Positions 1,163-3,095 of a stretch of 6,682 nucleotides of DNA are shown piece after piece. The notes under the pieces were generated by a model. It worked only from the letters and a program-made list of their open reading frames with translations, did no database searches and had not been told where the DNA came from. The translations under genes were made by a program, and so were the position numbers. This stretch comes from Nitrospinae bacterium RIFCSPLOWO2_12_FULL_45_22 (lineage in GTDB: Bacteria > 2-12-FULL-45-22): contig MHDQ01000173.1 of NCBI GenBank assembly GCA_001803565.1, positions 1 through 6,682 of the forward strand. Direction: 5' to 3'. Positions within the stretch are counted from its first letter, which is position 1; each line of letters starts with the position of its first letter.

Positions 1163-1174
1163 GGAATAAAATAT

Positions 1175-1337
1175 GTAACCGTTCACTAGACCTATCACCC
1201 AGAGCTGGCGAAGATTCCTTACTTCGTTCGGAATGACAATGGGGAAGGGTCCCGATTGATGTCATTTCGACCAAAGGGGGAAATCTAGAGCCAGGGGCTC
1301 GGAATGGCATAATCTTGAAAAGCTGGTGAACGGTTAC
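1175..1337. mobile_element. MITE-like element with GTAA-type ends and 8-bp target duplication
   Basis: A 163-bp non-autonomous transposon-like element. Its ends are perfect 12-bp terminal inverted repeats: GTAACCGTTCAC at 1175-1186 and GTGAACGGTTAC at 1326-1337. The octamer TAAAATAT abuts the left end (1167-1174) and is repeated exactly abutting the right end (1338-1345), as expected of a target-site duplication. Ends beginning GTAA with an 8-bp duplication are hallmarks of the IS66 family, so an IS66-type transposase elsewhere in the genome is the likely mobiliser; this is inference. The interior is too short for a transposase and carries an imperfect palindrome. Confidence 0.85.
1212..1286. 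repeat. Imperfect palindrome inside the MITE
   Basis: AGATTCCTTACTTCG and the following GGAATGACA (1212-1237) are matched in inverted form by TGTCATTTCGACC through GAAATCT (1260-1286), with a few mismatches and gaps. The half-sites resemble the GATTC...GGAATGACA type of interspersed repeat seen in many bacterial genomes. A partial third copy, CTCGGAATGGCAT, lies at 1298-1310. As RNA this could fold into a long imperfect hairpin. Confidence 0.55.
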
Positions 1338-1458
1338 TAAAATATAAGTTAAATAAGGGATTCCACCTGGTCAAATTATTCCCTAAACCTCAATTTAATA
1401 ACCTATTGAATTTGCTTTATAAAGCCTAAATTTTAGTGGCAAAAATACGATTTTACTC

Positions 1459-1548
1459 TTATTTTTTCTTCTGCCTCATCTTGGCCAGGAGTTTCTTATA
1501 CTTATGTTTGCGAATCTTCTTCCGCCTCTTCTTGACTACACTCCCCAT
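1459..1548 (-). CDS. bS22-like small ribosomal protein (AURKAIP1/COX24 domain), 29 residues
   Basis: A 29-codon gene whose product begins MGSVVKKRRKKIRKHKYKK and ends KMRQKKK. More than half of the residues are Lys or Arg. The MGSVxKKRRKxxxKxKxxK pattern matches the family containing mycobacterial ribosomal protein bS22 (about 33 residues, starting MGSVIKKRRKRM) and the C-terminal domain of mitochondrial mS38/COX24. The expected role is a structural peptide of the 30S subunit, binding 16S rRNA. An AGGAAGGGG stretch lies 11 bases before the ATG and a TATAAT box sits further upstream, so it probably has its own transcript. It is flanked on both sides by MITE-like elements and is separated from enolase by 251 bases. 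Genes this short are often missed by gene callers. The family match is from memory; the basic composition, start motif and ribosome binding site are directly visible. Confidence 0.85.
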   Translation of the reverse strand: MGSVVKKRRKKIRKHKYKKLLAKMRQKKK

Positions 1549-1617: not shown

Positions 1618-1780
1618 TTAGTTCCCACTGAAAAATGGGATGTTGAGCAAGCCTTCGGCCTCGAGGGCCTCAGCCCGAAGGCTTGACCACTAGATGCGTT
1701 ATGAAAACAATACTGCTGTAACAATAGGTAGTGGCAAAGCTTGCTTTGCTGGTTTTTCTGGTTTTTTCAGTGGGAACTAA
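1618..1780. mobile_element. Second MITE-like element with 18-bp inverted ends and hairpin core
   Basis: A 163-bp element bounded by perfect 18-bp terminal inverted repeats: TTAGTTCCCACTGAAAAA at 1618-1635 and its reverse complement at 1763-1780. The pentamer TTAAT directly flanks both ends (1613-1617 and 1781-1785), consistent with a 5-bp target-site duplication. The ends differ from those of the element at 1175, so a different transposase would be involved; the family is not assigned. The left end can also fold on itself (TCCCA at 1623-1627 with TGGGA at 1636-1640). The interior holds an 11-bp GC-rich hairpin and no plausible transposase frame. It starts 19 bases after the enolase stop codon, between enolase and the bS22-like gene. 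Confidence 0.8.
1648..1685. repeat. GC-rich hairpin in the core of the second MITE
   Basis: CAAGCCTTCGG at 1648-1658 and CCGAAGGCTTG at 1675-1685 form a perfect 11-bp stem around a 16-base loop that contains the palindrome CCTCGAGG (1659-1666). It lies downstream of enolase and could slow or end its transcript, but no T-tract follows on the minus strand, so it is not called an intrinsic terminator. Confidence 0.7.

Positions 1781-1799: not shown

Positions 1800-3095
<1,296 letters not shown>

Follow-up and report, generated by a model that had tools for sequence, protein, structure and literature searches.

A 163-bp MITE with IS66-type ends in the genome of a Nitrospinae bacterium, very probably mobilised by an IS66 transposase

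MITEs usually originate by internal deletion of a parent element. Bacterial examples with a known parent include MITECca01, from an IS982 element (PMC9769881), and MITEPsy1, from ISPsy2 (PMC3189936). The element described here resembles both in being shorter than 300 bp, in possessing terminal inverted repeats and in presumably relying on a parent IS to move it in trans, but the two published MITEs belong to other parent families and are copies of one sequence, whereas here common ends enclose widely different interiors. The second comparable system is the single-tnpC type of IS66 element. Published IS66 insertions are flanked by 8-bp repeats and have ends that begin GTAAGCG (PMC11946415), and the MITE shares with single-tnpC elements the 8-bp duplication and GTAA-starting ends of the form GTAA(C/G)(C/T)(G/A)TTCA(C/G) (also PMC11946415). 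It differs from them in having no gene and in an interior that is unrelated to the left part of the resident IS66 element. The third system is the REP/BIME class of repeats, with which the MITE has in common a dispersed palindrome as its interior and the ability to fold into a hairpin; here, however, the palindrome lies within transposon ends that are themselves bordered by an 8-bp duplication. No IS66 MITE of this type, and no mosaic or chimeric bacterial IS66 MITE, was found in the open-access literature, and the end sequence and the typical core sequence led to unrelated open-access papers or to nothing.

The window (the whole stretch of 6,682 nucleotides that was analysed) contains the element at an intergenic site. 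On one side lies the 3' end of an enolase gene (minus strand, 1800-3092), and on the other an acyl-CoA dehydrogenase gene, likewise on the minus strand, begins. The features of the element are as follows.

1167-1174, no strand: left 8-bp target-site duplication, TAAAATAT
1175-1186, plus strand: left terminal inverted repeat, GTAACCGTTCAC, an IS66-type end
1187-1325: MITE interior, non-coding, with no ORF of at least 60 aa here or in the 163 bp as a whole
1212-1238, plus strand: interior palindrome arm 1, AGATTCCTTACTTCGTTCGGAATGACA, 74% complementary to arm 2 and belonging to the dispersed GTCATT-type repeat class
1260-1286, plus strand: interior palindrome arm 2, TGTCATTTCGACCAAAGGGGGAAATCT, of the GTCATT-type class, which occurs between other ends too
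1326-1337, minus strand: right terminal inverted repeat, reading GTGAACGGTTAC on the plus strand
1338-1345, no strand: right 8-bp target-site duplication, TAAAATAT

The MITE measures 163 bp (1175-1337), and its ends are perfect over 12 bp inside a perfect 8-bp duplication. This structure was exactly as given in a preliminary description of the window, and when positions 1175-1189 were aligned with 1323-1337, 14 of 15 bp were found to pair in inverted orientation. By chance, a perfect 12-bp inverted pair together with a perfect 8-bp direct repeat within 300 bp would be expected about 2e-6 times per window (6682 x 300 x 4^-20). Folding of the 163-bp strand gave z = -5.0 relative to shuffles. Being short, free of a transposase gene and bounded by terminal inverted repeats and a target-site duplication, the element has the makeup by which MITEs are recognised. 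The intact duplication makes a recent insertion plausible. No orthologous match to the empty site of the window was obtained in the 40 other genomes searched, none of them from a close enough relative.

The terminal repeat is abundant in this genome. In the assembly of 3.67 Mb, 46 exact instances of GTAACCGTTCAC were counted and 0 of the reversed control; with one mismatch allowed, the counts were 162 and 5, respectively. In sampled stretches of the genome, at least 23 paired-end elements of 112-243 bp with differing 8-bp duplications were found when up to 3 mismatches per end and up to 1 in the duplication were accepted; each of 20 shuffled-end controls yielded 0 elements. The duplication was perfect in 16 of the 23, and these 16 duplications had an A+T content of 79%, compared with 54% for the sampled sequence. 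The flanks of the paired ends were varied, for example TAACCACT, GTGTAGTT, TAAAATTA, AATTAATT and AAGAATTT. The preliminary description had named multiple copies with differing 8-bp flanks as supporting evidence. Such copies were found for the family defined by its ends, members of which lie at unrelated sites, but not for the entire MITE: its complete sequence of 163 bp occurs once in the genome and is matched elsewhere by fragments of 27-39 bp only, so that just the ends and parts of the core are repeated. One 243-bp copy (L248) appears to be a GGGTGTGGCTATT-ended element nested in one of the GTAACAGTTCAG type, and a shorter relative (L260) is without the insert.

An empty site was identified for one family member, in Bacterium BMS3Bbin14. 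There, an element with GCTATCAC on both flanks (L175:547-698) splits a repeat, of which the same genome has four uninterrupted copies in which the target is present once (ATATCAC is kept, while the first base differs). The comparison shows the insertion of a member of the end class with an 8-bp duplication. These data bear directly on the alternative that the locus is a non-mobile structural palindrome, such as a REP/BIME-like repeat, a terminator or a protein-binding site, that happens to resemble a MITE. The strong hairpin potential, the intergenic site and an interior that consists of dispersed palindromic repeat sequence are all consistent with that proposal. It was nevertheless judged scarcely credible, given exact 8-bp duplications that vary by copy and a family member with an empty site, and for the family defined by its ends it is refuted by the differing duplications. 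To our knowledge, REP-type repeats are without 8-bp duplications. Other candidate empty sites were discarded: in this genome, L056 in an element of the L265/L270 type was matched on one side only, and several junction-spanning matches proved to reflect tandemly duplicated flanking sequence adjacent to the element.

Only one gene for an IS66 transposase was detected in the genome, a truncated tnpC (C275). Its start codon lies 133 bp inside a left end, GTAACCGTTCACCCAGC, that has the same 12 bases as the MITE end. The N-terminal half of the truncated TnpC matched DDE_Tnp_IS66, zf-IS66 and DUF6444; the IS66 domains reach approximately residue 314, the gene is cut after about 330 residues, and the protein scored below the NCBIfam IS66 cut-off (160 versus 180 bits). 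No partner end with a matching duplication was found for this left end, and the assembly, which is 85% complete, yielded no intact IS66 transposase. The truncated gene is fused to an HD-domain gene beside a run of N, and its abrupt end may be either a real truncation or the result of mis-scaffolding. At this locus (L048, about 2770-2990), tnpC reads in frame into the HD-domain gene, and the N run has the peptide EVGGFEKL on either side; this repeat suggests that the run may be a false gap joining two overlapping contigs. A parent of the three-gene IS66 type (tnpA, tnpB and tnpC) was rejected. tnpA and tnpB would not fit into the 133 bp that separate the left end from tnpC, and the full relatives described below, at 1493-1556 bp, have space for tnpC alone. 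The partner was therefore deduced to be of the single-tnpC type.

Full homologous IS66 elements with perfect 8-bp duplications were found in two other genomes (G048 and G233), each within a single contig. The ends of the 1493-bp element are GTAACCATTCAG and GTAACTATTCAG, that of the 1556-bp element is GTAAGCGTTCAG, and they differ from the MITE end by one or two bases. A planctomycetotal MAG that itself bears MITEs (L307) has a 1493-bp IS66 element with GTAACCGTTCACG at both ends. This element carries a frameshift and is not flanked by matching 8-bp repeats; the product of its main ORF scores above the NCBIfam cut-off for IS66. One such end was also found beside an IS66 gene in each of two further loci (L305 and L306), from Omnitrophica and Magnetococcales genomes. 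In all, at least three other genomes with MITEs of this kind have the identical end next to an IS66 gene. An IS66 transposase match was obtained in 8 of the 12 MITE-bearing genomes checked and none in the other 4. The preliminary description had also named a full IS66 element with matching ends as supporting evidence; full elements with identical or near-identical ends, most with 8-bp duplications, do exist elsewhere, while this genome offered the truncated tnpC only. Its premise that GTAA ends with 8-bp duplications are IS66 traits agrees both with these IS66 elements and with published data (PMC11946415).

From these observations, positions 1175-1337 are very probably a non-autonomous MITE whose 12-bp ends would be the binding and cleavage sites for a TnpC of the single-tnpC type of IS66, acting in trans. 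The assignment to IS66 is well supported by the copies of the end, the end at the resident tnpC, the planctomycetotal element, the ends of the relatives and the empty site in BMS3Bbin14, and the mobilising family proposed in the preliminary description can be upheld as very probable on the basis of ends that match IS66 elements and of the 8-bp duplications. We infer from sequence comparison that TnpC is the enzyme and that it acts in trans. In the proposed mechanism, TnpC made elsewhere in the cell would act on both ends, and insertion would duplicate 8 bp of an AT-rich target, the element having landed between the enolase and acyl-CoA dehydrogenase genes; the truncated tnpC in this genome would be a remnant of the source. 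It could be argued instead that the MITE was moved by another DDE family that produces 8-bp duplications and has GTAA-like ends, as the genome has just a truncated IS66 copy and 8-bp duplications are made by some other IS families, for example an IS6 element (PMC3281130). This was considered very improbable. The identical end adjoins tnpC here and IS66 genes in three or more other genomes that bear these MITEs, homologous IS66 ends are the same bar one or two bases, and a non-IS66 mover is strongly disfavoured given IS66 elements with these ends.

To determine the distribution of such elements, a GTDB-based collection was scanned for GTAACCGTTCA(C/G) ends spaced 112-172 bp apart; about 0.2 chance matches would be expected in the whole scan by our own arithmetic. 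The matches listed included Planctomycetota, Desulfobacterales and other deltaproteobacteria, Chloroflexales, Omnitrophica, Roizmanbacteria, Methylococcaceae, Magnetococcales, Bacteroidia and Poribacteria. Among the matches listed, 81 elements came from other genomes, and the 8-bp duplication was perfect in 40 of these and had one mismatch in 12 more. Control duplication lengths in the same 81 gave 0 for 7 bp, 0 for 10 bp and 5 for 9 bp. MITEs of this end class are uncommon, being present in only 3 of 386 sampled genomes, this genome included, and the control gave 0. Viral contigs produced only 2 matches to ends of the GTAACCGTTCA type. One GTAACCGTTCA-ended element on a viral contig (L321:5443-5606) lies beside genes resembling those of a Mu-like phage. 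A 12-bp end and an 8-bp duplication tie many unannotated repeats between genes, in this genome and in those of several phyla, to one transposase family, and because this combination is diagnostic, the repeats should be easy to annotate and usable as insertion markers. In kind, the window element is an ordinary MITE of the IS66 type, to which the recurrence of the end across phyla and the mixed interiors add interest.

Several classes of interior were found between the same ends: the GTCATT...AATCT palindrome of the window MITE, the CCACTAAGGCACCAAG class and the CACAGAG class. Genome-wide, the GTCATT-type class was matched 67 times, and its control 0 times. Interiors between such ends were likewise varied, and often palindromic, in other phyla. 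With the ends removed, interiors folded better than shuffles, with a median z of -3.8 in this genome and -2.9 elsewhere. The core classes are also present in the genome outside GTAACCGTTCAC-ended elements, and by eye they were seen between other inverted ends, TATAGTGAACGAC-like and ACTAGTGTATCGTTTCAT-like. These end types were assigned by eye; an automated search for other ends round every core copy, under strict settings, gave mostly none. The interior is a palindromic repeat module, unlike leftover IS66 sequence, and the MITE is therefore best seen as a pair of putative IS66 ends round unrelated repeat DNA.

The origin of the interior is the one point on which this reading departs from derivation of the MITE by internal deletion of the resident IS66 element, in which case it would still be moved by IS66. 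The latter is favoured by the identity of the MITE ends with the resident left end over 12 bp. It was regarded as unlikely, as outside the ends the interior is unmatched to the left part of the IS66 element (the sole part compared, the right part being missing) and is instead a repeat class present between other ends. Beyond the MITE itself, we tentatively hypothesize that the GTAACCGTTCA(C/G) ends form a cross-phylum shell round otherwise unrelated dispersed palindromic repeats, that MITEs with quite different ends in one genome can carry these repeat modules too, that such MITEs evolve by recombining end modules and palindromic core modules, and that some of the puzzling dispersed repeats of environmental bacteria are cargo of transposase ends. 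This broader proposal has a lesser chance of being right than of being wrong; if true, it would help to explain the spread of dispersed palindromic repeats. A core may come to lie between different ends by nested insertion, by recombination through palindromes or by independent capture.

A GTCGAGCAAGCTCGACCACTAC module is common to GTAACCGTTCAC-ended elements and to a second MITE-like family, which is represented in the window by one copy. This second MITE-like repeat occupies window positions 1619-1780 (AGTTCCCACTGAAAAA ... TTTTTTCAGTGGGAACT) and has about 12 related matches in the genome. Its flanks are AT-rich and may be 4-bp duplications, and GTAACCGTTCAC-ended elements contain its GAGCAAGC/CCACTA core as well. 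Between the two repeats, on the minus strand at window positions 1459-1548, lies a 29-codon Lys/Arg-rich ORF, MGSVVKKRRKKIRKHKYKKLLAKMRQKKK, that by eye resembles short proteins of the AURKAIP1/COX24 type.
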